Shown here: piece by piece, positions 16,041 through 30,312 of the stretch
How positions within the stretch are numbered: the stretch's first letter is position 1
Layout of the letters: each line of letters opens with the position of its first letter
Assembly: GCA_020832705.1 (NCBI GenBank)
Contig: JAFIEE010000017.1
Span: 1-34,891, forward strand
Direction: 5' to 3'
Length of the DNA: 34,891 nucleotides
DNA from: Paracoccaceae bacterium
GTDB lineage: Bacteria; Pseudomonadota; Alphaproteobacteria; Rhodobacterales; Rhodobacteraceae
Made by a program: the position numbers and the translations under genes
Notes under the pieces: model-generated
The model's input: the letters and a program-made list of their open reading frames with translations, nothing else
Told to the model about the DNA's origin: nothing
Database searches by the model: none

Positions 16041-18479
16041 CTACTGTCGCAGAATACGCCCTTCGGGGTCGAAGGGGGGGGCATCAAGCTGCACGGCGCG
16101 GTGCGGGCGGCCCAGGATCGCCACGTCGAATGCGGCGCCCGGCCTTGCGTGGGCGGCTTTCACATAGGCAATCGCCAGCGACTTGCCGACGCTGTAGCCA
16201 TAGGCCCCGGAACTGACCTGCCCAACCGGCGTGCCATCGGGCAGGAAGATCGGCTCGGACCCCGTGGCGTCGGCGTTGGACGCGGCCACGGCATCGGCGT
16301 CCACCTCCAGCATCACCATCACGTCACGCGGCGCGTTCCCGGCCACGCGCTCATACGCGGCGCGGTTCAGGAAATCGCCCTTGTCGAGCTTGATCAGCCC
16401 CGCCAGCCCGCTTTCCTGCGGCCAGTATTCGGGGCTGTATTCGCGCCCCCAACTGCCATAGCCTTTTTCGATCCGCAGTGACATCAGCGCGCGTGATCCC
16501 ACCGGCCCCGCGCCGAACTCGCGCCCGGCCTCCAGCAGCGCGGTGTAAAGCGCCACCTGATCGGCTGCGGCGCAATGCAGTTCCCAGCCCAGATCGCCGG
16601 TGAAGCTGACGCGGATGGCGATGCAGTCGATCCCCGCGACCGTGATCCGGGCCGAGCGCATGAAGGCGAAATCCTCGGTCGCGAGCGACGCGTTGGTCAG
16701 CCGCGAGATCAGCGCGCGCGACTGCGGCCCGGCAACGTTGAAGCCGCAGAGCGCCTCGGTCTGCGACTCGAAGCTGGTGCCCACGGGCAGCGGCACGGCG
16801 TTGAAGAACCGCGCATGGTAGCGTTCGGCCATGCCCGAGCCGACCATGAGAAACTCATCCTCGGCCAGCCGCGTGACGGTGAAATCCCCCGCCACACCCC
16901 CGCGCTTGCCGATCAGCGGCGACAGACAGGACCGCCCCACCTTGCGCGGCATCCGGTTGGCCAGCAATGCGTTCAGCCAGTCCTCGGCCCCTGGTCCCTT
17001 CACCCGGTATTTGGCAAAGTTCGATATGTCGATGATCCCTGCCGTTTCGCGCAGCATCCGGCATTCGGCGCCCACGGGTTCCCACCAGTCCTGCCGGGTG
17101 AAGCCGTAGTTTTCGCGCGCCTTGTCCGCGCTACCGGCGAACCATAGCGGGTGCTCCCAGCCGTAGTTCAGGCCGAAGACCGCGCCCATCTCGCGCTGCA
17201 TGGCATATGCGGGGCGGGTGCGGACGGGGCGGCCAGCGTCGCGTTCCTCATAGGGGAAGTGGATCTTGAAGCGGTTGGCATACTGGTCGCGCACCTTCTC
17301 GCGCACGAAATCGGGCTTGTTCGCCCATGTGCCGAAGCGTGCCATGTCCCAGGCGAACATGTCATACTGCGGCTCGCCCTCGATCATCCATTGCGCCGAC
17401 ATCAGCCCCAGCCCGCCCGACTGCGAAAACCCGGGGATCAGCCCCGCGCAGCAGAAATAGCCCTTCCGTTCCGGCACCGGGCCGAACAGCGCGGCGGCAT
17501 CCGGAGACCAGATCATCGGCCCGTTGATCACCCGCTTCACCCCGGCCGTCGCCGCCACCGGCACGCGGTCCATGGCGCGCAGCATGTTTTCCTCGATCCG
17601 CTCCAGATCATCGGCGAACAACTCATGCCCGAAATCCGGCGGTGTGCCATCCTCGGCCCAGAAGCGCATGTCGCGCTCATAGGCGCCGATCAGCAGGCCC
17701 TTGCCTTCCTGCCGCAGGTAATACTCGCCATCACGGTCGGCGACGGACGGCAAGCGGCGGTCCAGCGCGGCGATCTCGGCGATGGTTTCGGTGACGAAAT
17801 ACTGATGCTCGGTCGGCTGCAGGGGCAGCTCAAACCCCGCCATCCGCGCCAGTTCCCGCCCCCAGAGCCCCGCCGCATTGACCACCCAGGGCGTGCGGAT
17901 TTCGCCCTTGGGGGTTTCCACGATCCAGGTGTCGTCCGCTTCCTGCCGCAGCGCGGTGACAGGGGTAAACCGGTGGATTTCGGCGCCGCGCGCGCGGGCA
18001 CCGGCGGCATAGGCGGCCGTCACGCCCGAAGGGTCCACATTGCCGCCGCCCGGTTCGAACATGATGCAGCGGATGCCGGTGAAATCGACCAGCGGGTGCA
18101 GGCGCTCGGCCTCATCGCGCGATACCTCGTGGAAATCGATGCCGTAGCGGCGGCCCTTGGCCTCCTGCAGGCGCAACTGATGCTCGCGCGCCTCGGTCTG
18201 CGCCAGATAGAGCGATCCGGGCTGAAAGACGCCGCAGCCCTGCCCGGTCTCGGCCTCCAGTTCCTTGTAGAGGTTCATCGTATAGTGCTGCATGCGCGAG
18301 ATGTTGGTGTTGTCATGCAGCCCGTGCAGGTTCGCCGCCGCGTGCCAGGTGGAGCCCGAGGTCAGTTCGTCGCGTTCCAGCAGGACCACATCCGACCATC
18401 CCAGCTTGGCCAGGTGATACAGGATCGAACAGCCGATCACGCCTCCGCCGATGACGACGGCCTGTGCATGCGATTTCAT
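16041..18479 (-). CDS. Dimethylglycine/sarcosine dehydrogenase-like FAD oxidoreductase with GcvT folate domain
   Basis: A two-part enzyme of 812 residues of the dimethylglycine/sarcosine dehydrogenase family, which oxidatively removes N-methyl groups and passes the C1 unit to tetrahydrofolate. The N-terminal DAO-type FAD domain has GGGVIG at residues 11-16 and STWHAA with H46, the position that carries covalent FAD in this family. The C-terminal half is a GcvT-like folate domain (for example AGIIDISNFAKYRVKGPGA and SFTGDLGWELHC). The start at 18479 is chosen because GGAGGA lies seven bases upstream; an ATG seven codons earlier has no such site. It is the last gene of the methylated-amine unit. 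The exact substrate (dimethylglycine, sarcosine, N-methylglutamate or another N-methyl compound) cannot be read from sequence. Confidence 0.85.
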   Translation of the reverse strand: MKSHAQAVVIGGGVIGCSILYHLAKLGWSDVVLLERDELTSGSTWHAAANLHGLHDNTNISRMQHYTMNLYKELEAETGQGCGVFQPGSLYLAQTEAREHQLRLQEAKGRRYGIDFHEVSRDEAERLHPLVDFTGIRCIMFEPGGGNVDPSGVTAAYAAGARARGAEIHRFTPVTALRQEADDTWIVETPKGEIRTPWVVNAAGLWGRELARMAGFELPLQPTEHQYFVTETIAEIAALDRRLPSVADRDGEYYLRQEGKGLLIGAYERDMRFWAEDGTPPDFGHELFADDLERIEENMLRAMDRVPVAATAGVKRVINGPMIWSPDAAALFGPVPERKGYFCCAGLIPGFSQSGGLGLMSAQWMIEGEPQYDMFAWDMARFGTWANKPDFVREKVRDQYANRFKIHFPYEERDAGRPVRTRPAYAMQREMGAVFGLNYGWEHPLWFAGSADKARENYGFTRQDWWEPVGAECRMLRETAGIIDISNFAKYRVKGPGAEDWLNALLANRMPRKVGRSCLSPLIGKRGGVAGDFTVTRLAEDEFLMVGSGMAERYHARFFNAVPLPVGTSFESQTEALCGFNVAGPQSRALISRLTNASLATEDFAFMRSARITVAGIDCIAIRVSFTGDLGWELHCAAADQVALYTALLEAGREFGAGPVGSRALMSLRIEKGYGSWGREYSPEYWPQESGLAGLIKLDKGDFLNRAAYERVAGNAPRDVMVMLEVDADAVAASNADATGSEPIFLPDGTPVGQVSSGAYGYSVGKSLAIAYVKAAHARPGAAFDVAILGRPHRAVQLDAPPFDPEGRILRQ

Positions 18480-18570
18480 CACGTCCTCCGCTTCGCGCAC
18501 CTGCGTTCACCAGACACCACCGGTGCGGGCGGCGCGAGTCCCGTTTCCGACAGAGGCGAAAGCAAAGCCG

Positions 18571-19629: not shown

Positions 19630-21999
19630 TTAGCCATAGTTACCTTTCACCCGCTCCTTGGTGGGGTCGAAATGCGGCGTGCGCACCACCTTTGCCGACA
19701 GCCGCTTCTGCTGGCCATCAAGCTGGCCGATCTCAAGCTCGGTGCCGATTTCCGCATGCGTCACATCCACCCGCGCCAGCGCGATGACACGGCCCAGAAT
19801 GGGCGAGCGCATGGCCGAGGTGATTTCCCCCACCTGCGCGCGGCCCAGCCGGACACAGTCGCCCGATGCAGGCACGATCCCGCCGTCAATGTCCAGCCCC
19901 ACCAGCTTGCGCACCGGGCTGGCCTTGCGCCGTTCCAGCGCCGCGCGGCCGATGAAGTCATCGGGCTTGGATTTCAGCGGCACGGTGAAGCCGATGCCAG
20001 CCTCGAACGGGTCGGTCTGATCGCAGAATTCCATGCCCGCGAAGACCAGCCCGGCCTCGATCCGCACCATGTCCAGCGCGGCCAGGCCGAAGGGGAGCAT
20101 CCCGTGCGGCTGGCCCGCCTGCCAGACGGCATCGAACACGGTTTCAGCGTCCTTGGGCGCGCAGAAGATTTCAAACCCCAATTCGCCGGTATATCCCGTG
20201 CGGCTGAGCACCAGCGGCGCCCCGTCATAGGCCCCGATCCGCCCGATGGCGAAGCGGAACACGCCCAACTCATCGACCGAAGGCTGCGTCGGCGGGGTCC
20301 AGATGATGTCGCGCAGGATATCGCGCGATTTCGGCCCCTGCACGGCGATATTGCACAGATGGTCGGTGGCGGTGCGCACATGGACATTCAGGCCCTTTGC
20401 CTGCGCCACCTCGCGCAGGTGCAGCCCCGAGGCATCGGCGCCACCCACCCAGCGGAAATTCGAATCCCCCAGCCGATAGACAATGCCATCGTCCATCATC
20501 CCGCCGTGGTCATGGCATACGGCGGTATAGGCGCATTGCCCGACCGACAGCTTGCGCATGTCACGGGTCAGGCAGTATTGCAGCAGCGCCTCGGCGTCGG
20601 GGCCCAGGACTTCGAACTTGCGCAAGGGCGACAGGTCCATCACCACCGCGCGTTCACGGCAGGCCCAGTATTCCTCGATCGCGCCGTGGCCGGTCATGTC
20701 CTGCGCCAGCCAGAAGCCGTTGTATTCGACGAAATTGCGCGTGTGGCGGGCGAAACACTGGTGAAACCCGGTTTCGCGCGTCGGCTGCACGGGGCTGTCG
20801 GCGCTCATGCGATACCCTTTCGATGGTCTGAAATCCTGCCCCGCGTCATAGACCCGCACCTGTATGTCGGTAGGGTTCCAGCCGTTGGCGGGGTCGATGT
20901 CGCACGGACAGGCGGTGGAGACGCAGACAAGGTCCGTCAGCGCCTGCAGCATCACATAGTCACCGGGCCGCGACCACGGGTCATCCATGCCGATGGCGTT
21001 TGCCGCATCCAGCATGGTGTTGAAGAAGAAGTTGATCGCGGGCCACCCCTTGCGCGGGCGGACGTTCCAGCGCGCCAGATCGCGGGTGATGTTGTCCGAG
21101 CAGTTCACATGGCCGGGATAGCCCATGTCCTCGTAATACCGCGCGGTGCAGGCCAGCCCGAAGGTGTCATGCCTCCCGCAGGTATCCTGCACGATCTGCA
21201 CCAATGGTTCATGGTCCACGCTCCAGTATTTCGAAAATATCCCCGGCTCGGGGTACAGGTTGCCCATCAGCGAGCGCGTGGTGGTGGGGTCGATGTCGCG
21301 CTCAAGCCCGTCATCCAGCGCGCGCAGGGAAAACGCCTGAAAATCCGAACATTCGCGCCCCTGCACATCGAGTATCTGGATATACTGGCCCTTGCGCACC
21401 TCATAGGCCCGGGCCTCGCCGGGCAGGATGTTGAGATCGGTCAGCGGATTGGCCAGCGGCTCGGGTGGGGCCAGCCCGCCCTTGGCCGCGCCGGGGTTGG
21501 CGCGGCGGATGTAGAGCGCAAGCTCTGTCGGTGCGGTCTGCGCCGCCGGGTCCGGCACGGGGCCGGGCGCGCAGACGATCAGCAGCCCGTCGCAAGACGC
21601 GTGCAGCCGCACATGGTCCCCCGCGCGCGACCCTTCACCGAACAGCCGTACCGAATCGGCGCGCCCGATGTCGAAGCCGGTGGCTTCCAGCGCGCGCAAC
21701 ACCCGGCGACCCGATGCATCGGCCATCAGTGCGGCCTGCAACCCGCCCGGCGCACCCTGCCCCTTGGCGCCGATCATCGCCGCGTCGGATCGCCCTTGCG
21801 GGTCGAAGAACGTCAGTTCCGCAAGCTGCATCCCCTCGCGGTCCATGATCCAGATTTCATCCCCGGCTTCGATCCGCACCGCGCGCGACCCGCCGCCCGG
21901 CACGGGGTGGCGTTCGGTGCCGTGCGGCAGAATCGGCAGGCCCGGCACCCGTGCCGCGCCCAGTTGCGTGACCCGTTCGAAGGGCAGATACAGGCCCAT
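19630..21999 (-). CDS. tdm: Trimethylamine N-oxide demethylase (DUF1989 + GcvT fusion)
   Basis: Tdm splits trimethylamine N-oxide into dimethylamine and formaldehyde. The 789 residues have the diagnostic architecture: an N-terminal DUF1989 region (about 25-400) and a C-terminal GcvT-like tetrahydrofolate domain (about 410-789). Four likely zinc ligands are C284, H297, C300 and C364. Their spacing (13, 3 and 64) equals that of the ligands I recall for the Methylocella silvestris enzyme (C263, H276, C279, C343), shifted by 21. GGAGG lies six bases before the ATG at 21999. It is directly downstream of tmm (56-base gap with a hairpin), as in characterised trimethylamine users. Folate capture of the formaldehyde by the second domain is known chemistry for the family. 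Confidence 0.93.
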   Translation of the reverse strand: MGLYLPFERVTQLGAARVPGLPILPHGTERHPVPGGGSRAVRIEAGDEIWIMDREGMQLAELTFFDPQGRSDAAMIGAKGQGAPGGLQAALMADASGRRVLRALEATGFDIGRADSVRLFGEGSRAGDHVRLHASCDGLLIVCAPGPVPDPAAQTAPTELALYIRRANPGAAKGGLAPPEPLANPLTDLNILPGEARAYEVRKGQYIQILDVQGRECSDFQAFSLRALDDGLERDIDPTTTRSLMGNLYPEPGIFSKYWSVDHEPLVQIVQDTCGRHDTFGLACTARYYEDMGYPGHVNCSDNITRDLARWNVRPRKGWPAINFFFNTMLDAANAIGMDDPWSRPGDYVMLQALTDLVCVSTACPCDIDPANGWNPTDIQVRVYDAGQDFRPSKGYRMSADSPVQPTRETGFHQCFARHTRNFVEYNGFWLAQDMTGHGAIEEYWACRERAVVMDLSPLRKFEVLGPDAEALLQYCLTRDMRKLSVGQCAYTAVCHDHGGMMDDGIVYRLGDSNFRWVGGADASGLHLREVAQAKGLNVHVRTATDHLCNIAVQGPKSRDILRDIIWTPPTQPSVDELGVFRFAIGRIGAYDGAPLVLSRTGYTGELGFEIFCAPKDAETVFDAVWQAGQPHGMLPFGLAALDMVRIEAGLVFAGMEFCDQTDPFEAGIGFTVPLKSKPDDFIGRAALERRKASPVRKLVGLDIDGGIVPASGDCVRLGRAQVGEITSAMRSPILGRVIALARVDVTHAEIGTELEIGQLDGQQKRLSAKVVRTPHFDPTKERVKGNYG

Positions 22000-22055: not shown

Positions 22056-23393
22056 TCAGTTGCGCAGATAGGCTTCCATGCTGTCATCCAGCGCGTCAAC
22101 CCAGGGGGTGTGGTGCGCGGGCGCCATGGTGCCGGTCATCACGGACTTGTAGGAATTGTTCCGGAAGCCCATGATGTCCTGCTTCTTGTGCGTCTTCCAT
22201 TCGTAGAAGGCCGCGCAGGCGCCATCCACATCGAAGGAAGGATAGTCCGTCTCGGCAATCAGCTCCTTCACATAGTCCCCCTGATATCCGATCGGATCGT
22301 CGCTCGCGTCCTCTTCCGCCACACGGCGGGTCACATCGGCGTCAAGAACCGCGCGGTCGGAGGGAATCTCGATCCGCCCCAGGATCGCATCGCGCACCCA
22401 CCAGGCCTGCGCGTCGAACATGTTGAAGGTGAACCACTGGTCCTGCATGCCCAGATAGAACAGCTTCGGGTTCGCGTTCCAGACCACACCCTTGTACAGG
22501 TCCGCGGTCGCCAGCCGGTTGGCGGTGCGCAGCTTCAGCGGCTCGTCCATGAAGGGGAAATGGTGCAGGTAGCCGGTGCACAGGATGATCGCGTCCACCC
22601 GTTTCTGGCTGCCGTCCTTGAAGGTGCAGGTATTGCCCTCGACCCTGGTCAGCAGCGGCACCTCTTCCCAGTTGTCGGGCCATTTGAAGCCCATGGGCGC
22701 GGTGCGGTAGCTGACGGTGACGGATTTGCATCCGTATTTCCAGCACTGCGAGCCGATATCCTCGGCCGAATAGCTGGTGCCGATGATCAGGATGTCCTTG
22801 TCCTTGAACTCCAGCGCGTCGCGGAAATCATGGGCATGCAGAACCCGCCCGTTGAAGCCGTCCAGCCCATCGAAATGCGGCACATTCGGGGTCGAAAAAT
22901 GCCCCGAAGCGCAGATCACATGGTCGAATTCCTCGGTATAGACCTTCTGCGCCTTCAGATCCTCGGCGGTGACGCGAAACTTGCCGGTGTCTTCCCTGTA
23001 GGTGACCCAGCGCACCGGATGGCGGAAGCGCACCCAGTCGCGGACCCCGGCCTTTTCCACCCGGCCCAGAATGTAGTCGCGCAGCACCGCGCGCGGCGGG
23101 TATGAAGCGATCTGCTTGCCGAAATGTTCCTCGAATGTGTAATCGGCGAATTCCAGCCCTTCCTTGGGGCCGTTGGACCACAGGTAGCGATACATCGAGC
23201 AATGCACCGGCTCGCCGTATTCATCCAGCCCCGTGCGCCAGGTGTAATTCCACAGCCCGCCCCAGTCGTCCTGTTTTTCAAAGCATACGATCTCGGGGAT
23301 TTCGGCGCCCTTTTCCGCCGCCGACTGGAAGGCGCGCAACTGCGCGGTGCCCGAGGGGCCGGCACCGATAATGGCGACTCTCTTCTTGCTCAT
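22056..23393 (-). CDS. tmm: Trimethylamine monooxygenase (bacterial flavin monooxygenase)
   Basis: Tmm oxidises trimethylamine to its N-oxide with NADPH and oxygen. The 445 residues match the bacterial FMO size. The FAD motif GAGPSG is at residues 10-15, the FMO signature is [11 protein letters not shown], and the NADPH-binding loop is [10 protein letters not shown]. The C-terminal stretch [19 protein letters not shown] and the segment [20 protein letters not shown] are very close to characterised Tmm proteins of Methylophaga and roseobacters. The start at 23393 ([10 protein letters not shown]) follows GGGAG; the open frame extends 29 codons further but without family homology. It lies between an unknown small gene (25 bases) and tdm. 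Related activity on dimethylamine, dimethylsulfide or indole is known for the family. Confidence 0.95.
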
Positions 23394-23418: not shown

Positions 23419-24045
23419 TTATCGTTGCTGCGCCCCGGCGGGGGCGGGGTCAGCGCTGGCGCCGGTCCAGTCGGGCGCAAAGCCCAGGATCACCGCATCG
23501 CGCGGCAGCGCGGGGTTGAACAGCGCGTTGTGCCACCAGGTCGCCTGCCATGCGGGGTTGTGTTCGGCAAGTTGCCAGACCCGCACCGGGATATCGAACC
23601 GCTGGTTGAAGGCATCGAAGCGTAGCCGCAGCCGTTCGGCCTGCCGCAGCGCCGCCGCGCCGGGCGAGCCGGGCGCGAAACTGGCGCACAGCATGTCCGA
23701 GAATTCGTGCGGTTTCTGGTAGTAGAATTCCGAAAACAGCTTCAGCGCGGCCTCGCGCCGGGCCGCCGGGTCATTGGTGCGGCGCACCATGTGCTGCATT
23801 TCCGGTGTCTTGTCATGGGGGCCGGTCTTGTTCATCACCGTGATGATCTGGCCCAGACTGTCGCCGCCCTCGGCGGGCAGCACATCGGGCATGATGCCGG
23901 GGCCGGGGCGGCCCAGGTCCTCGCGCATCATCATCTGGCGCACGCGGCATTGCCAGCGCAGGAAGGCCATGCGCAGCGCCCCTGCGGCGCTGTCGGCAGG
24001 CGGGGCGGGTTGGGGCCAGAGCATCTGGCGCGCCTGTTCACTCAT
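23419..24045 (-). CDS. Unrecognised protein in methylated-amine operon (208 aa)
   Basis: I do not recognise this protein. It has 208 residues and a sound start at 24045 with GGAGG five bases upstream. No signal peptide or membrane segment is evident. The N-terminus is followed by a basic, Met-rich helix ([17 protein letters not shown]); the middle has [20 protein letters not shown] and a Phe/Tyr-rich [15 protein letters not shown]. The C-terminal third is Trp-rich ([20 protein letters not shown]) and ends in a low-complexity Ala/Pro tail. There are only two Cys and no clear metal or nucleotide motif. It lies 25 bases before tmm and 49 after the next small gene, so it is cotranscribed with the pathway and probably serves it. 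Confidence 0.8.
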
Positions 24046-24061
24046 GCAACCTCCGTCGATT

Positions 24062-24085
24062 GCGGCGGGGAAGATGCCCCGCCGC
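24062..24085 (-). other. Perfect GC-rich hairpin between the two small genes
   Basis: GCGGCGGGG at 24062-24070 pairs perfectly with CCCCGCCGC at 24077-24085 around a six-base loop. It occupies half of the 49-base gap. No T run follows on the minus strand, so an mRNA-stability or processing role is more likely than termination. Confidence 0.5.
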
Positions 24086-24094
24086 CGCCGTTGA

Positions 24095-24508
24095 TCAGAA
24101 CTTCATATACGCCTTGCGCAACTCCACCAGCGGGTGGCGGTCCGACATCTGGAACTTGATCAGCAATTCGCGCGCGATCATGTCGCGGTCCTGCTGGTTG
24201 TCGGGCAGCGCGATGCTGTCGGGCACGCGCACCCAGCCGTTGATGTTGCGGTCGAACACCGCCGGGTGCCCTTCCTCATAGCCCATATGCACGTCTTCCA
24301 GCCAGTTGAGGTCATCCCAGCCCATGACCTCCATGTATTTCGCCAGAAACGGCGTCAGGCGGTCATAATCGGGGACCAGGTTCACATCGTAGCGATAGCC
24401 GATGTGCTGGCCGATCTCCTTCTCGCGTTCGGACACCAGCCCGTCGGCATCCTTCAGGAACTGGTCCACATCGGTGATTTCCGAGCCGCGGTATTGCGTG
24501 CCTGCCAT
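24095..24508 (-). CDS. Unrecognised small protein in methylated-amine operon (137 aa)
   Basis: I do not recognise this protein. It has 137 residues with a start at 24508 behind AGGGAGA. It is soluble and acidic, with no Cys and no signal peptide. Notable stretches are HIGYRYDVNLVPDYDRL, YMEVMGWDDLNWLEDVHMGY, and IARELLIKFQMSDRHPLVELRK at the C-terminus. High Trp, Tyr, Asp and His content suggests a binding or enzymatic role rather than a structural one, but no catalytic motif can be named. It follows mgsC by 29 bases and precedes the 208-residue gene, so it belongs to the same transcript. It could be an accessory subunit of N-methylglutamate synthase or serve the trimethylamine steps. Confidence 0.82.
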   Translation of the reverse strand: MAGTQYRGSEITDVDQFLKDADGLVSEREKEIGQHIGYRYDVNLVPDYDRLTPFLAKYMEVMGWDDLNWLEDVHMGYEEGHPAVFDRNINGWVRVPDSIALPDNQQDRDMIARELLIKFQMSDRHPLVELRKAYMKF

Positions 24509-24537: not shown

Positions 24538-25905
24538 TCACAGGTGGTGATAATCATCCACGCCCACGGTGTAGTTGGTGCCGGCCAGTGGCACGGCGGC
24601 CATGGCGGAAGCCTCCATCGTCAGCGCGGCCAGATCCTCGGGCTCCAGGCTGTGGATGTTGGTCTTGCCGCAGGCGCGGGCGAAAAGCTGCGCCTCGATG
24701 GTCAGCGTGTGCAGGAAGTTGTAGACCCGCTCGGCGGCTTCGTCGGGGTTGAGGCGCGCGCGCAGCTTGGGGTCCTGCGTGGCCACGCCCACCGGGCAGC
24801 GCCCCGTGTGGCAATGGTAGCAATAGCCCGGCTCCACGCCCATTTCGGATTCGTAATCGGCCTCGGGGATGTCCTTGTTGCAGTTGAGCGCCATCATCAC
24901 CGAATGGCCCAGCGCGATGGCGTCAGCGCCCAGCGCGATGGCCTTGGCCACATCGGCGCCGTTGCGGATGCCGCCGGCGTAGACCAGGCTGATCTCGCCG
25001 CGCTTGCCCAGATCGTCGATGGCGCGCCGCGCCTGACGGATCGCAGCCATGCCGGGCACGCCGGTATCTTCGGTCGCCAGATGCGGGCCTGCGCCGGTGC
25101 CGCCTTCCATCCCGTCGATATAGATCGAATCCGGGTCGCATTTCACCGCCATGCGCACATCGTCATAGACCCGCGCCGCGCCCAGCTTGAGCTGGATGGG
25201 GATCTGCCAGTCTGTCGCCTCGCGGATTTCCTGGATTTTCAGCGCCAGATCGTCGGGGCCCAGCCAGTCGGGGTGGCGTGCGGGCGAGCGTTGGTCGATG
25301 CCTGCGGGCAGCGAGCGCATCTCGGCCACCTGGTCGGTGACCTTCTGGCCCATCAGATGCCCGCCAAGCCCGACCTTGCAGCCCTGCCCGATGAAGAATT
25401 CGCAGGCATCGGCCAGCACCAGATGGTGCGGGTTGAAGCCATAGCGCGACTGGATGCACTGATAGAACCACTTGGTGGAATAGCGCCGTTCGTCGGGGAT
25501 CATGCCGCCTTCGCCCGAACAGGTGGCGGTGCCCGCCATGGTGGCGCCGCGCGCCAGCGCGGTCTTGGCCTCGTAGCTGAGCGCGCCGAAGCTCATGCCG
25601 GTCACATAGACCGGAATGTCCAGTTCGATCGGGCGCTTCGCGCGGGGGCCGATCACCGTCTTTGTCTCGCATTTCTCGCGGTAGCCTTCGATCACGAAGC
25701 GCGTCAGCGTGCCGGGAAGGAAGGTCAGGTCATCCCAGTGGGGGATTTTCTTGAACAGCGAGAAGCCGCGCATCCGGTAGCGGCCAAGCTCGGACTTGAT
25801 GTGAATGTCGTCGATCACATGCGGCGGAAAGATCGAGGAATTGCCCAGCCGGTTGGGGTCACGGTTGAGCGGCTTCTTGGTGCGGGGGATGTCGCCATCT
25901 GCCAT
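24538..25905 (-). CDS. mgsC: N-methylglutamate synthase subunit C (FMN / 3Fe-4S glutamate-synthase-like)
   Basis: The large catalytic subunit of N-methylglutamate synthase, 455 residues, resembling the FMN-binding barrel of glutamate synthase. Visible marks are MSFGALSYEAKTALARG, the FMN/substrate loop DGMEGGTGAGP, and the iron-sulfur cysteines in CYHCHTGRCPVGVATQ near residues 360-375. In the indirect methylamine route MgsABC transfers the methylamino group of gamma-glutamylmethylamide to 2-oxoglutarate, giving N-methylglutamate. Identification as MgsC rather than another glutamate-synthase-like protein rests on its company: mgsB, mgsA and gmaS lie upstream in order. GGAG precedes the ATG at 25905. 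Confidence 0.92.
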   Translation of the reverse strand: MADGDIPRTKKPLNRDPNRLGNSSIFPPHVIDDIHIKSELGRYRMRGFSLFKKIPHWDDLTFLPGTLTRFVIEGYREKCETKTVIGPRAKRPIELDIPVYVTGMSFGALSYEAKTALARGATMAGTATCSGEGGMIPDERRYSTKWFYQCIQSRYGFNPHHLVLADACEFFIGQGCKVGLGGHLMGQKVTDQVAEMRSLPAGIDQRSPARHPDWLGPDDLALKIQEIREATDWQIPIQLKLGAARVYDDVRMAVKCDPDSIYIDGMEGGTGAGPHLATEDTGVPGMAAIRQARRAIDDLGKRGEISLVYAGGIRNGADVAKAIALGADAIALGHSVMMALNCNKDIPEADYESEMGVEPGYCYHCHTGRCPVGVATQDPKLRARLNPDEAAERVYNFLHTLTIEAQLFARACGKTNIHSLEPEDLAALTMEASAMAAVPLAGTNYTVGVDDYHHL

Positions 25906-25984: not shown

Positions 25985-26842
25985 TCAGAGGATCAGCTTC
26001 TTCTCGTTCGGTTCCAGATTGTCGTAATTCCAGAGCTGCTTGCCCGCGACGACCTTGGTGAAATGGTCCACGCCGCGTTCGGGCAGCAGGCCATACTGGC
26101 GCAGCTTCCGGGTCAGCCAGGCGCGGTCCAGATCGGTCAGTTCGGCCTCGACCGCGTCCACCCCCAGCGAACGTATTTCGCCGCCCACATAGATCGTGCC
26201 GTCATACATGGAATCGCCCAGGTTCTTGCCCGCGTTGCCGCAGACCACCATGCGCCCGCGCTGCATCATGAAGCCCGAAAGCGCGCCGGTGTCGCCGCCG
26301 ACGATGATGGTGCCGCCCTTCATGTCGATCCCCGTGCGCGAACCGACCGAACCCTTGCAGACCAGATCACCGCCGCGGATGGCCGCGCCGAAGGTGGAGC
26401 CCGCGTTCTTTTCGATCACCACGGTTCCGGCCATCATGTTCTCGGCGCAGGACCAGCCCACGCGGCCGGTGATCCGCACGTTCGGCCCGTCGATCAGCCC
26501 GACCCCGAAATAGCCAAGCGAGCCTTCGAAGATCAGGTTCAGCCGGTTGAGGATGCCCACTCCCAGCCCGTGCTTGCCGCGCGGGTTCTGGATGACGACC
26601 GTGCCGAACCCTTCGGCCATCAGGTCGCGCAGGCGCTTGTTGACCTCGGTCGTGGTCAGCCCGTCGGCGTCGATCTCGGTGCGCTTGTTGTAATCGACAT
26701 CCGCCGCCCAGGGGTAGGTGAAGCGCTCTTCCTCGGAGGGCTCAAAGAACACCTGCTGCGTGCGCCCGGTCAGCGCTTCGGTGGTCATGCCCATGTCGCG
26801 GGCGCGTTGTTCCTGCCCGTCGGCGGGTTTCTGGGCGCTCAT
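25985..26842 (-). CDS. mgsB: N-methylglutamate synthase subunit B (GXGXG domain protein)
   Basis: This is the structural beta-helix subunit of N-methylglutamate synthase, matching the C-terminal GXGXG domain of glutamate synthase. Of its 285 residues, the stretch from about 120 to 235 carries the Gly-rich turns (AIRGGDLVCKGSVGSRTG, MKGGTIIVGGDTG, GRMVVCGNAGKNLGDSM, DGTIYVGGEI). I chose the ATG at 26842 because it overlaps the mgsA stop as ATGA, the usual coupling geometry; an ATG three codons earlier would overlap more. Together with MgsA and MgsC it rebuilds the three functional parts of glutamate synthase as separate subunits. Confidence 0.92.
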   Translation of the reverse strand: MSAQKPADGQEQRARDMGMTTEALTGRTQQVFFEPSEEERFTYPWAADVDYNKRTEIDADGLTTTEVNKRLRDLMAEGFGTVVIQNPRGKHGLGVGILNRLNLIFEGSLGYFGVGLIDGPNVRITGRVGWSCAENMMAGTVVIEKNAGSTFGAAIRGGDLVCKGSVGSRTGIDMKGGTIIVGGDTGALSGFMMQRGRMVVCGNAGKNLGDSMYDGTIYVGGEIRSLGVDAVEAELTDLDRAWLTRKLRQYGLLPERGVDHFTKVVAGKQLWNYDNLEPNEKKLIL

Positions 26843-27774
26843 GCCTGCCATACCCGAACCTCCTCATCATAAGGGTCAACCGTGTCGATTTCCTCCGGAA
26901 GGATGGCGCGGATCGCCACTTCCTCGGAGGCCATGGCGATCAGGTCATCGCTTTCGTAAAGGACCAGAGGCTTGGCGGCCATGGTGTCCTTGGCCATGCC
27001 AAGCTGATCCTTCGTCGCCACCAGATAGGTGAACACGCCGTCGATTTCGTCGATGGAGCGGCGCAGTGATTCCTCCAGCGTCATGCCATTGGCCAGGTTG
27101 TGCGCCGTATAGACCGCCAGCAACTCGCTGTCGCAGTTCGACATGAAACGGTGTCCGCGGCGCTCCATCTCGCGGCGCATGTTCCAGTAGTTGGTGATCT
27201 GGCCGTTGTGGACCACGCTTACATCGTTATAGGGGAAGGCCCAGTAGGGATGGGCCGAGCGGATATCCACATCCGATTCCGTGGCCATGCGGGTATGGCC
27301 GATCCCGTGCGTGCCCTGGAAGCCCTGCAGCTTGTATTCATCGGCCACCCGGGTGGCATCGCCCAGATCCTTGATCAGTTCCAGCCCGTTGCCGAAGCTC
27401 AGGATCTCGGTGCCGTCCACTTCCTCGATGTATCTGGCCAGTGCCTCGGTGTTGCCGTCATGGCTGAGCACATAGCGCACGGCATGGGGGCGCACGCGGT
27501 CGCGCGCCTTGATGACGGCGCCGCGCTCTTCCATGCGGCGTTCCACTTCGGCGATGCGCTCATCGACGATCCTGTCGATCCCGCGCCCCTTGCCCATGTC
27601 CTCCTGCTCGGCGGCCTTGAGCCGCAGCACGTAGTCCCCTTCGACCGGCTCGCCGTAGACGGCGAAGCCGGTGCTGTCGGGGCCGCGGTGCTTGAGGGCC
27701 TGCAGCATCGCGGTCATTTCCGATCCCACATCGGACCGTTTGCCGCGATGAATCAATCCTGCGATTCCGCACAT
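26839..27774 (-). CDS. mgsA: N-methylglutamate synthase subunit A (class II glutamine-amidotransferase-like)
   Basis: This subunit of 311 residues has the Ntn-hydrolase fold of class II glutamine amidotransferases. C2 (MCGIAGLIHRG) becomes the N-terminal nucleophile; HRGPDSTGF, GHTRMATESDVDIRSAHP, VHNGQITNYW and SNCDSELLA form the rest of the active site. In this pathway it would release methylamine from gamma-glutamylmethylamide for transfer on MgsC. The ATG at 27774 follows AGGAG. It starts 67 bases after gmaS and overlaps mgsB by four bases. Confidence 0.93.
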   Translation of the reverse strand: MCGIAGLIHRGKRSDVGSEMTAMLQALKHRGPDSTGFAVYGEPVEGDYVLRLKAAEQEDMGKGRGIDRIVDERIAEVERRMEERGAVIKARDRVRPHAVRYVLSHDGNTEALARYIEEVDGTEILSFGNGLELIKDLGDATRVADEYKLQGFQGTHGIGHTRMATESDVDIRSAHPYWAFPYNDVSVVHNGQITNYWNMRREMERRGHRFMSNCDSELLAVYTAHNLANGMTLEESLRRSIDEIDGVFTYLVATKDQLGMAKDTMAAKPLVLYESDDLIAMASEEVAIRAILPEEIDTVDPYDEEVRVWQA

Positions 27775-27841: not shown

Positions 27842-29323
27842 TCAGGGCAGGCATTCCATGTAGAAGTCCTTGTCCCAGTCGGTGACGGTGGACATGAAGC
27901 GTGCCCATTCGTCGGACTTGTATTCGTGATACAGGCGATACATCTCGCCCGGCATGCCGCGCTGGACCACCTTGTCCTGTTCCAGCGCTTCCAGCGCCTC
28001 GCCCAGGCTCATGGGCAGCTTCTTGACCTGCTTGCCCGCTTCCATCGCTTCATAGATGTTGCGCTCTTCGGGCGCGCCGGGGTCGAGGTTGTTGTCGATC
28101 CCGTCATCGGCGGCGGCCAGGATGGTGGCGCCCATCAGATAGGGGTTCACCATGCTGTCCACGGAGCGGTATTCGAACCGCCCAGGCGCGGACACACGCA
28201 GGCCCGTGGTCCGGTTCTGAAAGCCCCAGTCGGCAAAGACCGGCGCCCAGAACCCGGTATCCCACAACCGGCGATAGGAATTCACCGTGGAACAACCGAT
28301 CGCGGTCAGCGCGCGCAGGTGGTGGACAATGCCGCCGATCGCCGCCAGCCCGGCCTTGCCCGGCATCTGTGGGTCGTCGGTGTCCGGCATGAAGGTGTTT
28401 TCGCCGCCGTCGACATACATGTAGTTGTCGGCCATCCCGGGCAGGTTGTCCGGGTCATTGCCGCAGCGCACGAACTGGTCCGCGCCGCCGTGCCACAGGC
28501 TCATGTTGTGGTGGCACCCCGAGGCCGAGACCCCCATGAACGGCTTGGTCATGAAACAGGCGAAGATGCCGTTTTCGCGCGCCACCTGCGCGCAGATCTG
28601 GCGGTAGGTGGTCAGCCGGTCGGCGTTGCGCAGCACATCGTCGAAGGTCCAGTTCAGCTCCAACTGGCCGGGTGCATCCTCGTGGTCACCCTGGATCATG
28701 TCCAGGCCCATCCTGCGGGCGTAGCGGATCACCTGCATCGACACCGGGCGCAGGCTTTCGAACTGGTCGATATGGTAGCAATAGGGCTTGGAATAGCCGT
28801 CACGCGGCTTGCCGTCCTCGTCGAACTTGAGCCACATCATCTCGGGCTCGGTGCCCACACGCAGCTGCAACCCGTTATGTTTCTTCTGGAATTCCTGGTG
28901 CAACCGGCGCAGGTTGCCACGGCAGTCGGCGGTCAGGAAGGCGCCGGGGTCGACCTTTTCCTCGCGGTTGCGAAACAGCGTGCAATAGAAGCGGCCGATC
29001 TCGGGCGCCCAGGGAAGCTGCATGAAGGTCTCGGGCTCGGGGATGCCGATCAGTTCGGCCGCCTCGGGGCCGTAGCCCAGATAATCGCCGCGCCGGTTCA
29101 GGAACAGGTTCATGGTGGCGCCATAGACCAGCTGGAAGCCCTTCTTGGCCACGCGCTCCCAGTGGTCGGACGGGATGCCCTTGCCCATGATCTTGCCGGT
29201 GACCGACACGAACTGAAGATACAGATACTCGATCCCCAACTCGTCGATTTTCTTGCGTACCTCGCGAATCTTTTCGTCGCGACCCTCGGCTTCCACGAAG
29301 GCTTCAAGATCTGTTTCCGGCAT
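27842..29323 (-). CDS. gmaS: Gamma-glutamylmethylamide synthetase (glutamine-synthetase family)
   Basis: GmaS joins glutamate and methylamine with ATP, the entry step of the indirect methylamine pathway. The protein has 493 residues. Glutamine-synthetase signatures are present: GTEPEMMWLKF (metal site), GDHEDAPGQLELNW, KPFMGVSASGCHHNMSLW (substrate loop) and FEYRSVDSMVNPYLMGATIL (near the C-terminal Arg and metal site). The frame is open another 116 codons, but the ATG at 29323 has a perfect AGGAGG six bases upstream and yields the family start. It is the first gene of the minus-strand operon and diverges from the GntR-type gene. Its linkage to mgsABC separates it from ordinary glutamine synthetases. 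Confidence 0.94.
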   Translation of the reverse strand: MPETDLEAFVEAEGRDEKIREVRKKIDELGIEYLYLQFVSVTGKIMGKGIPSDHWERVAKKGFQLVYGATMNLFLNRRGDYLGYGPEAAELIGIPEPETFMQLPWAPEIGRFYCTLFRNREEKVDPGAFLTADCRGNLRRLHQEFQKKHNGLQLRVGTEPEMMWLKFDEDGKPRDGYSKPYCYHIDQFESLRPVSMQVIRYARRMGLDMIQGDHEDAPGQLELNWTFDDVLRNADRLTTYRQICAQVARENGIFACFMTKPFMGVSASGCHHNMSLWHGGADQFVRCGNDPDNLPGMADNYMYVDGGENTFMPDTDDPQMPGKAGLAAIGGIVHHLRALTAIGCSTVNSYRRLWDTGFWAPVFADWGFQNRTTGLRVSAPGRFEYRSVDSMVNPYLMGATILAAADDGIDNNLDPGAPEERNIYEAMEAGKQVKKLPMSLGEALEALEQDKVVQRGMPGEMYRLYHEYKSDEWARFMSTVTDWDKDFYMECLP

Positions 29324-29498: not shown

Positions 29499-29527
29499 TT
29501 TGACCCATTCTGACCAGAAAAATTCAA

Positions 29528-29556
29528 TTGGGCGCCCCCGAGTTTGTCACTATATA
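29528..29556 (+). promoter_or_regulatory. Candidate promoter of the GntR-type gene
   Basis: TTGGGC (29528-29533), a 17-base spacer and TATATA (29551-29556) point toward the regulator gene. The -10 box is the most AT-rich hexamer in the region. The implied start near 29563 gives a leader of about 80 bases. Confidence 0.5.
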
Positions 29557-29640
29557 CAGGGGACGGGTTGCGTGCTGCGCAGGTGTTGTGCACAGGGGAC
29601 GCGGATTTACGCTGATCGAGGACGCCTGCGGATTTCGGAC

Positions 29641-30312
29641 ATGATGACTGTAAACGCGACCGATATTGCAACTGCCCTGAAGCAGCAGATTTCGTCTGGC
29701 CGATTCGCGGTCCGGGACCGGTTACCGCCCGAACGCGTGCTGGCCGAACAGTATGGCGTGGCGCGGGGCACCATCCGGCAGGCGCTGCGCCAACTTGAGG
29801 AGTCGCGCTTTGTGGAGCGGCGCCCGGGCAGCGGCACCTATGTCACCTGGTCCGACGGTGACGACACCCGCCCGATTTCCGAGATCACGCGCCCGCTTGA
29901 CCTTGTCGACGCGCGCTTCGCGGTCGAACCGCAGATGTGCCGCCTTGCGGTGCTGCACGCCACCGGTGCGGAACTGGAAAAGCTGCGCGGATTGCTGGGC
30001 CGGATGGAGGACTGCGAGGACGACAGCGCCGCCTTTGCCGATATCGACGAGGATTTCCATCTGGCCATCGCCGAGGCCACCGCCAACCCGATGATCGAGT
30101 GGATGATGCGCAAGATCCACGAGACCCGCAGCCACGCCCAATGGGCACGGATGCGCGAACTGACGCTCAACCCGGATGTGATCCGTATCTACAACCGCCA
30201 GCATCGCGCGGTCGTCGACGCCATCGAGCACCGCAACCCGGAGGCGGCGGCCGAGGCGATGAAGAAACACCTGTCCACGGCGCGCCAGACACTGGTGGGG
30301 CTGGCCGATTGA
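29641..30312 (+). CDS. GntR/FadR-family transcriptional regulator
   Basis: A 223-residue DNA-binding protein. The N-terminal winged helix-turn-helix is clear (LPPERVLAEQYGVARGTIRQ, then RFVERRPGSGTYV). The C-terminal part is an FCD-type helical ligand domain with DEDFHLAIAEATANPMIEW and YNRQHRAVVDAIEHRNPEAA, whose Asp and His residues suggest a metal-assisted ligand site. The frame is open upstream to 29500, but that part overlaps the promoter, so I chose the ATG at 29641; the next codon is also ATG. It diverges from gmaS and so is the prime candidate to control the methylated-amine operon. The 216 bases after it contain no gene and no clear terminator. Confidence 0.88.
   Translation: MMTVNATDIATALKQQISSGRFAVRDRLPPERVLAEQYGVARGTIRQALRQLEESRFVERRPGSGTYVTWSDGDDTRPISEITRPLDLVDARFAVEPQMCRLAVLHATGAELEKLRGLLGRMEDCEDDSAAFADIDEDFHLAIAEATANPMIEWMMRKIHETRSHAQWARMRELTLNPDVIRIYNRQHRAVVDAIEHRNPEAAAEAMKKHLSTARQTLVGLAD

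Follow-up and report, generated by a model that had tools for sequence, protein, structure and literature searches.

Two conserved small protein families accompany a second GmaS-MgsABC-like gene set, a candidate replacement for dimethylamine monooxygenase in Alphaproteobacteria

Introduction

What do two small genes of unrecognised kind contribute to methylated-amine use when they stand between an mgsC-like gene and tmm? This question is raised by the window, i.e., the whole 34,891-nucleotide stretch of contig JAFIEE010000017.1 of a Paracoccaceae bacterium (assembly GCA_020832705.1), in which proteins of 137 and 208 residues, here designated P137 and P208, are encoded side by side. According to the main text of PMC5520151, SAR11 bacteria lack DmmDABC (dimethylamine monooxygenase), and dimethylamine (DMA) is called a bottleneck. 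For strain HTCC1062, the main text of PMC3160333 lists glxBCD as a putative N-methylglutamate synthase and places SAR11_1304, a "monomeric sarcosine oxidase", next to an aminomethyltransferase. Regulation by TmaR and TmoR, together with an unnamed gene of unassigned function between tmoR and tmm, is described in the main text of PMC13390433. A P137- or P208-like protein is named in the excerpted text of none of these three papers, nor in that of PMC7948447, and the excerpted text of PMC12478193 and PMC12661815 holds nothing on the two genes. This paper describes both protein families, the gene set to which they are linked, and the distribution of that set relative to Dmm.

Materials and Methods

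A scan with a P137 alignment yielded at least 558 relatives, of which the best 80 loci were kept; one of these, L096, probably duplicates genome G008. Tallies of neighbouring genes are minimum counts, because some contigs are short. The gmaS and tmm genes were counted with an identity floor of 50%, and omission of the floor changed the counts to 69 and 26 loci, respectively. The P208 alignment comprised 58 of the 72 P208 genes present in these loci and 7 others, and the P137 alignment 48 of the 80 P137 genes and 7 others; short, fused, and near-identical rows were dropped by eye in both. For comparison with the classic methylamine genes, the surroundings of Dmm genes were retrieved at nine loci, 3 to 5 of which reach gmaS or mgs. 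Residues of RhGmaS were located in its PDB chain, the numbering of which equals that of the paper plus 20; all five residues compared fit this shift.

The family sample consisted of 198 genomes of the window's family, approximately one per genus. The class sample consisted of 385 Alphaproteobacteria genomes, 22 of which encode Tmm (21 over the cut-off and one in two pieces), including the window's own genome and G451 from the window's family. PF11927 matched 149 of the 198 family genomes, in two score groups, and was dropped as a Dmm marker; because of this lack of specificity DmmA (NF041259) was used instead. The Tmm tree contained 58 sequences: the complete set of 46 from the family sample, together with 12 of the 21 further ones detected in the class.

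Results and Discussion

P137 and P208 are conserved, previously undescribed protein families

The two reading frames lie in an operon-like row on the reverse strand (Table 1). Their coordinates, their ribosome-binding sites (AAGGGAG before P137 and GGAGG before P208, with AAAGGGAG before tmm, all purine-rich), and the gaps of 29, 49, and 25 bases that separate mgsC2, P137, P208, and tmm (the latter counted from its ATG at 23393) were confirmed as given in the first-pass annotation. Comparison of the window with G002, another genome of its genus, gave a dN of 0.003 and a dS of 0.26 for P137, and a dN of 0.034 and a dS of 0.31 for P208, and this purifying selection indicates that both are real genes.

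Table 1. Genes of the window discussed in the text
Feature	Position	Strand	Evidence
Dimethylglycine-dehydrogenase-like DAO + GcvT protein	16041..18500	-	Pfam DAO, FAO_M, GCV_T, GCV_T_C
tdm, trimethylamine N-oxide demethylase, dimethylamine source	19630..21999	-	NF053776, 1212.7 bits (cut-off 1100)
tmm, trimethylamine monooxygenase	22056..23393	-	NF058570, 826 bits (cut-off 675)
P208	23419..24045	-	208 aa; ORF, RBS, dN/dS; predicted FMN-binding split-barrel fold, AlphaFold2 pLDDT 93.3
P137	24095..24508	-	137 aa; ORF, RBS, dN/dS; directly downstream of mgsC2
mgsC2, GltB-like synthase subunit, module-2 type	24538..25905	-	Pfam Glu_synthase
mgsB2, GXGXG-domain subunit, module-2 type	25985..26851	-	Pfam GXGXG
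mgsA2, glutamine-amidotransferase-like subunit, starts MCG	26839..27774	-	Pfam GATase_6
gmaS2, glutamine-synthetase-like ligase, module-2 type	27842..29323	-	ATG at 29323, 493 aa; TIGR03105, 315 bits
Regulator gene, divergent from operon	29500..30312	+	homologue in 63 of 80 related loci (best 80 of at least 558)

The reported absence of known motifs also held, as neither window protein matched a Pfam or NCBIfam family at E<=1. Scattered weak matches were all that was obtained with the 65 aligned P208 members against Pfam (best E 0.006) and with the 55 aligned P137 members against NCBIfam (best E 0.04). A single match of P137 to Toxoplasma TLAP2 (E 0.0083, 74 residues) was judged to be due to chance, and carriage on plasmids was set aside when neither protein matched anything in the plasmid collection. 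P137 and P208 thus represent conserved protein families that were previously undescribed. Homologues with a known unrelated function were not encountered, nor was an absence of association with methylated-amine genes.

The model of P208 is confident. Its best VIA hit was 3db0 (Z 9.9, rmsd 2.8 over 118 residues), and Foldseek gave a probability of 1.00 for the top rows with a best E of 1.4e-3, none being at 0.001 or below. The matched proteins are mostly titled PNPOx-like, FMN-, FAD-, F420-, or heme-binding, or general stress proteins, and presumably share a split barrel. Split-barrel proteins of such kinds serve flavins, F420, and heme. The predicted fold of P208 appears to resemble that of FMN-binding split-barrel proteins (PNPOx-like, HugZ/HutZ-like), from which it differs in sequence (8% identity to 3db0), and its cofactor binding is putative. 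A weak model was obtained for P137 (pLDDT 73, pTM 0.60), and the fold search with it gave nothing convincing (best Z 2.2). The window P137 contains no cysteine, which excludes a cysteine-bound iron-sulphur cluster in this protein.

The adjacent genes form a second, paralogous GmaS-MgsABC set

The genes to the left of P137 had been named gmaS and mgsABC. This naming was not sustained, since identities, TIGR03105 scores, and trees identify them, at the level of sequence, as a paralogous second set, here called module 2, that is not orthologous to the named methylamine set. Compared with the classic proteins of 3 to 5 dmm-linked loci, identities were 30-33% for GmaS, 33-35% for MgsA, 35-40% for MgsB, and 51-52% for MgsC. 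The window GmaS2 score lies below the TIGR03105 cut-off of 469.6, whereas the classic copy in L112 reaches 661. In trees of 36 GmaS and 31 MgsC rows the two types split, with support values of 99 for GmaS2, 96 for GmaS1, 99 for MgsC1, and 70 for MgsC2; in the MgsC tree, a branch with support 99 separates the 10 mgsC1 rows from the rest, and all 20 mgsC2 rows fall outside it. Moreover, contig C160 (5,420 bases) of the window's genome carries mgsA, mgsB, mgsC, and gmaS genes that are 76, 80, 90, and 84% identical to classic references, with gmaS cut by the contig end. A classic mgsABC-gmaS operon is thus partly present on C160, and module 2 cannot simply be regarded as the methylamine set of this genome.

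Module 2 shares with GmaS-MgsABC, the route for monomethylamine (MMA) via gamma-glutamylmethylamide and N-methylglutamate, a putative ligase of the glutamine-synthetase type and three glutamate-synthase-like subunits with the same domains. All three expected subunits (GATase, GXGXG, and GltB-like by Pfam) are encoded in the window, N-methylglutamate synthesis by them being putative. GmaS2 also retains the amine-site motif QxDHEDAxGQxExN (QGDHEDAPGQLELN vs QNDHEDANGQFEMN), which covers five of the seven amine-site residues of RhGmaS (Q175, D177, E179, E186, and N188); the comparison covered these five, the other two being Tyr147 and Lys30'. Differences comprise the low identity, the separate position in the trees, and the extra genes for P137, P208, and a nitrilase-family protein. 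The two sets can coexist in one genome, the window's included.

P137 is linked to mgsC2 rather than to tmm

According to their record titles, the best 80 of at least 558 P137 loci derive mostly from Alphaproteobacteria, with some from Gammaproteobacteria; loci of Ruegeria arenilitoris (L078) and Roseovarius halotolerans (L036) are among those with module 2. The proposed tie of the two genes to others for methylated-amine use was corroborated by the finding that a window-type mgsC stands directly upstream of P137 in all of these 80 loci, in which P137 is 80-97% identical to the window protein. Median identities to the window proteins in the same 80 best loci were 92% for MgsC2, 88% for P137, 80% for MgsB2, 78% for MgsA2, and 60% for P208. 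Genes found near P137 encode P208 (72 loci), GmaS2 (68), the regulator, putatively of the GntR type (63), and a nitrilase-family protein of approximately 283 aa (PF00795; 62), again among the best 80 of at least 558. An exclusive neighbourhood of tmm or mgs, on which the first-pass annotation had focused, thus applied to P137 with respect to mgsC and not with respect to tmm, as a true tmm was found in just 25 of these best 80 loci, some of them on short contigs. The pair is consequently not confined to sites flanked by mgsC and tmm, and P208 varies in position, being located elsewhere, on the opposite strand, or missing in some relatives.

The gene that follows P137 encodes the nitrilase in 62 and P208 in 14 of the best 80 of at least 558 loci. 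Nitrilase and P208 genes adjoin in 58 loci of this selection, with a 4-base overlap in 43 of those, and a narrow motif of the nitrilase catalytic residues matched in 37 of the 62 nitrilase genes, a figure to which no weight is given here. The nitrilase-family gene is missing from module 2 of the window; a nitrilase on contig C164 of the same genome, 46-47% identical and in other surroundings, was judged to be a different member of the family. The gene immediately preceding gmaS2 encodes a 447-aa FAD oxidoreductase (PF01266) in 31 of the 65 loci in which gmaS2 has an upstream neighbour.

Several individual loci showed further features. Adjacent to the regulator gene, in the vicinity of module 2, locus L049 encodes a 240-aa class-I glutamine amidotransferase (PF00117; 2332-3054), and reading frames of 238-240 aa occupy the equivalent place in many other loci, the PF00117 profile having been run on L049 alone; a putative glutamine amidotransferase, SAR11_1286, is listed for HTCC1062 in the main text of PMC3160333. 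A DUF1330 protein is encoded between P208 and tmm in L015 (9314-9604), with a homologue in 11 of the best 80 of at least 558 loci. In genome G128, an amino acid permease gene (PF13520; L146, 10127-11740) lies inside module 2, between the nitrilase gene and P208. Finally, L096, titled Oceanobacillus sp. HTM 045 and hence assigned to a Gram-positive genus, carries a module-2 cluster of Rhodobacteraceae type and is probably mislabelled or contaminated.

Module 2 and Dmm exclude each other among the sampled genomes

In the family sample P137 and P208 were each detected in 19 of the 198 genomes, 18 being common to both. The two mismatches are likely caused by assembly gaps: in G129 P137 is followed by just 808 bases of contig, and in G187 the P208 match begins at base 4 of a contig. 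DmmA and Tmm scored over cut-off in 27 and 46 of the 198 genomes, respectively, and none of the 198 combined DmmA with P137 or P208. Among the 46 Tmm genomes, 25 encode DmmA, 17 module 2, none both, and 4 neither (Fisher p 3e-9, assuming an independence that largely fails). Of these four, G025 gave a PF11927 match of the Dmm type at 230 bits, and G110, G182, and G210 gave none above 200 bits. At class level, the 22 Tmm genomes comprise 17 with P137, 4 with DmmA, none with both, and one, 64% complete, with neither. The view that the genes stand where a DMA step is missing was therefore strengthened, since module 2 occurs where Dmm is absent.

Module 2 resembles DmmDABC in that it is found in Tmm/Tdm genomes, where DMA must be used. 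P137 and P208 themselves, as had been stated before, bear no resemblance to Dmm proteins; the idea that they are diverged Dmm subunits was rejected on hhalign probabilities of 0.1 to 1.6% against 9-sequence profiles of DmmA, DmmB, and DmmC.

A small genome with SAR11 signatures carries module 2 and P137

Genome G406, a single contig of 1.2 Mb with 29% G+C and a completeness of 99%, contains exact matches to four SAR11 16S probes. It encodes Tmm, Tdm, a TMAO transporter, Mgd-like sox genes, GmaS1, GmaS2, Mgs2ABC, P137, and an FAD oxidoreductase that shares 59% identity with the 447-aa protein; searches of its single contig found no DmmABC, Mgs1, or P208. As GmaS1 is present without Mgs1, Mgs2 would also have to serve methylamine in G406, if methylamine is used. 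P208, being absent, is not essential to module 2 there. Gene kinds corresponding to SAR11 glxBCD-glnT and SAR11_1304 (putative synthase, ligase, and oxidase; PMC3160333) are clustered in G406; however, the excerpted text of that paper, the sole source for HTCC1062 here, describes neither a P137-like gene nor two GmaS/Mgs types. In G230 and G535 a stretch of approximately 20 kb comprises both GmaS-Mgs sets together with Mgd-like genes and the genes for P137, P208, and Tmm; P208 comes after the classic gmaS1 in the same orientation, with module 2 on the other strand (L137, 1525-2115, and L138, 1761-2315, respectively). Among the stretches fetched at class level, P208 was found in G230, G535, G237, G275, G564, and G544 and not in G384, G478, and G375.

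A possible route for DMA and its alternatives

We propose that module 2, with P137 and P208, replaces Dmm in the use of DMA via a gamma-glutamyl amide and an N-alkyl-glutamate, and consider the chances that this reading of the sequences is correct to be evenly poised. GmaS2 would join DMA to the gamma-carboxyl of glutamate, Mgs2ABC would shift the amine onto 2-oxoglutarate to yield N,N-dimethylglutamate, and FAD/folate dehydrogenases, such as the 447-aa DAO protein often found beside gmaS2, Mgd, or the DAO + GcvT protein of the window, would move the methyl groups to tetrahydrofolate. The window protein is a possible demethylase of a later step, and the nitrilase-family product, where present, may recover side products. 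The main text of PMC7948447 gives RhGmaS Km values of 16 mM for DMA (poor use) and 27 uM for MMA; amide formation with DMA is chemically feasible, since RhGmaS itself accepts this amine, albeit poorly. The most likely role of P137 is that of an obligate fourth partner to the Mgs2 synthase, and that of P208 is an auxiliary one as a flavin (or heme) protein, which might, for instance, supply electrons.

The proposed replacement of Dmm is favoured by the linkage of P137 to mgsC2, the conservation of P137 close to that of MgsC2, and the co-occurrence of P137 and P208; by the exclusion of Dmm in family and class and the classic set on C160; and by the amine-site motif of GmaS2 and the presence of P137 and module 2 without DmmABC in G406. 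It is weakened by the small number of independent swaps, the lack of Mgs1 and P208 in G406, the three module genomes without Tmm (G091, G173, and G211), the three Tmm genomes with neither set, the module genomes without a classic GmaS, and the weak P137 model. A title-level search for bacterial literature on N,N-dimethylglutamate or gamma-glutamyl-dimethylamide, in which the matches for dimethylglutamate were three medical papers, found none, and this also weighs against it.

Module 2 could alternatively be a second route for MMA, with a differently controlled GmaS-MgsABC isoform that P137 and P208 tune or feed with electrons and with DMA not being a substrate. This explanation, which we consider unlikely though still credible, agrees with the retention in GmaS2 of the amine-site motif of the methylamine-preferring GmaS, with Mgs2 being the sole Mgs of the SAR11-type G406, and with the lack of a classic GmaS over the cut-off in 6 of the 20 family genomes with module 2, among them the single-contig G128. 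DMA is nevertheless favoured over MMA, because 12 of these 20 genomes do have a classic GmaS over the cut-off, to which G000, whose classic gmaS lies at the end of a contig, and G187, whose classic gmaS seems to be in two pieces, can be added, and because 22 family genomes encode a classic GmaS and neither Dmm nor module 2. Module 2 is thus missing from these 22 Dmm-less genomes, as it is from all 27 DmmA genomes.

The exclusion of Dmm might also reflect inherited clustering, i.e., two types of tmm cluster, with dmm or with module 2, that spread by lineage without being functionally equivalent. The Tmm tree lends this some weight, as the Dmm/module label is strongly clustered and changes three times overall, once within the family (each label needs 5 changes when rows with neither set are counted too), so that the exclusivity counts are far from independent. 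It provides three independent pairs, which all agree in direction (sign test p 0.25). The tree may understate the swaps at genome level, because Tmm is often linked to these genes, and the exclusion holds outside the window's family as well. We consider inherited clustering to be improbable. Still less probable is action on another amine (a larger alkylamine or an amino alcohol) released or taken up alongside TMA/TMAO, which could account for the three family module genomes without Tmm and for the 35 of the best 80 of at least 558 loci without tdm in the fetched stretch (some contigs being short), but not for Tmm in 17 of the 20 family module genomes or tdm in the other 45 of those 80 loci, and which would leave the exclusion of Dmm without a reason.

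A more far-reaching form of the replacement of Dmm by module 2 is put forward tentatively, as a possibility that we doubt more than the replacement itself: module 2 might constitute an oxygen-independent DMA path through gamma-glutamyl-dimethylamide and N,N-dimethylglutamate, with both methyl groups passing to folate and no free formaldehyde, with P137 as a new fourth synthase subunit, and as the step for DMA hitherto missing in SAR11 and in roseobacters without Dmm. If module 2 does replace Dmm, also in the genome with SAR11 signatures, the number of organisms counted as DMA users and the predicted release of DMA to the air would change, and genes open to confusion with gmaS or mgsABC would in some cases belong to a different system.
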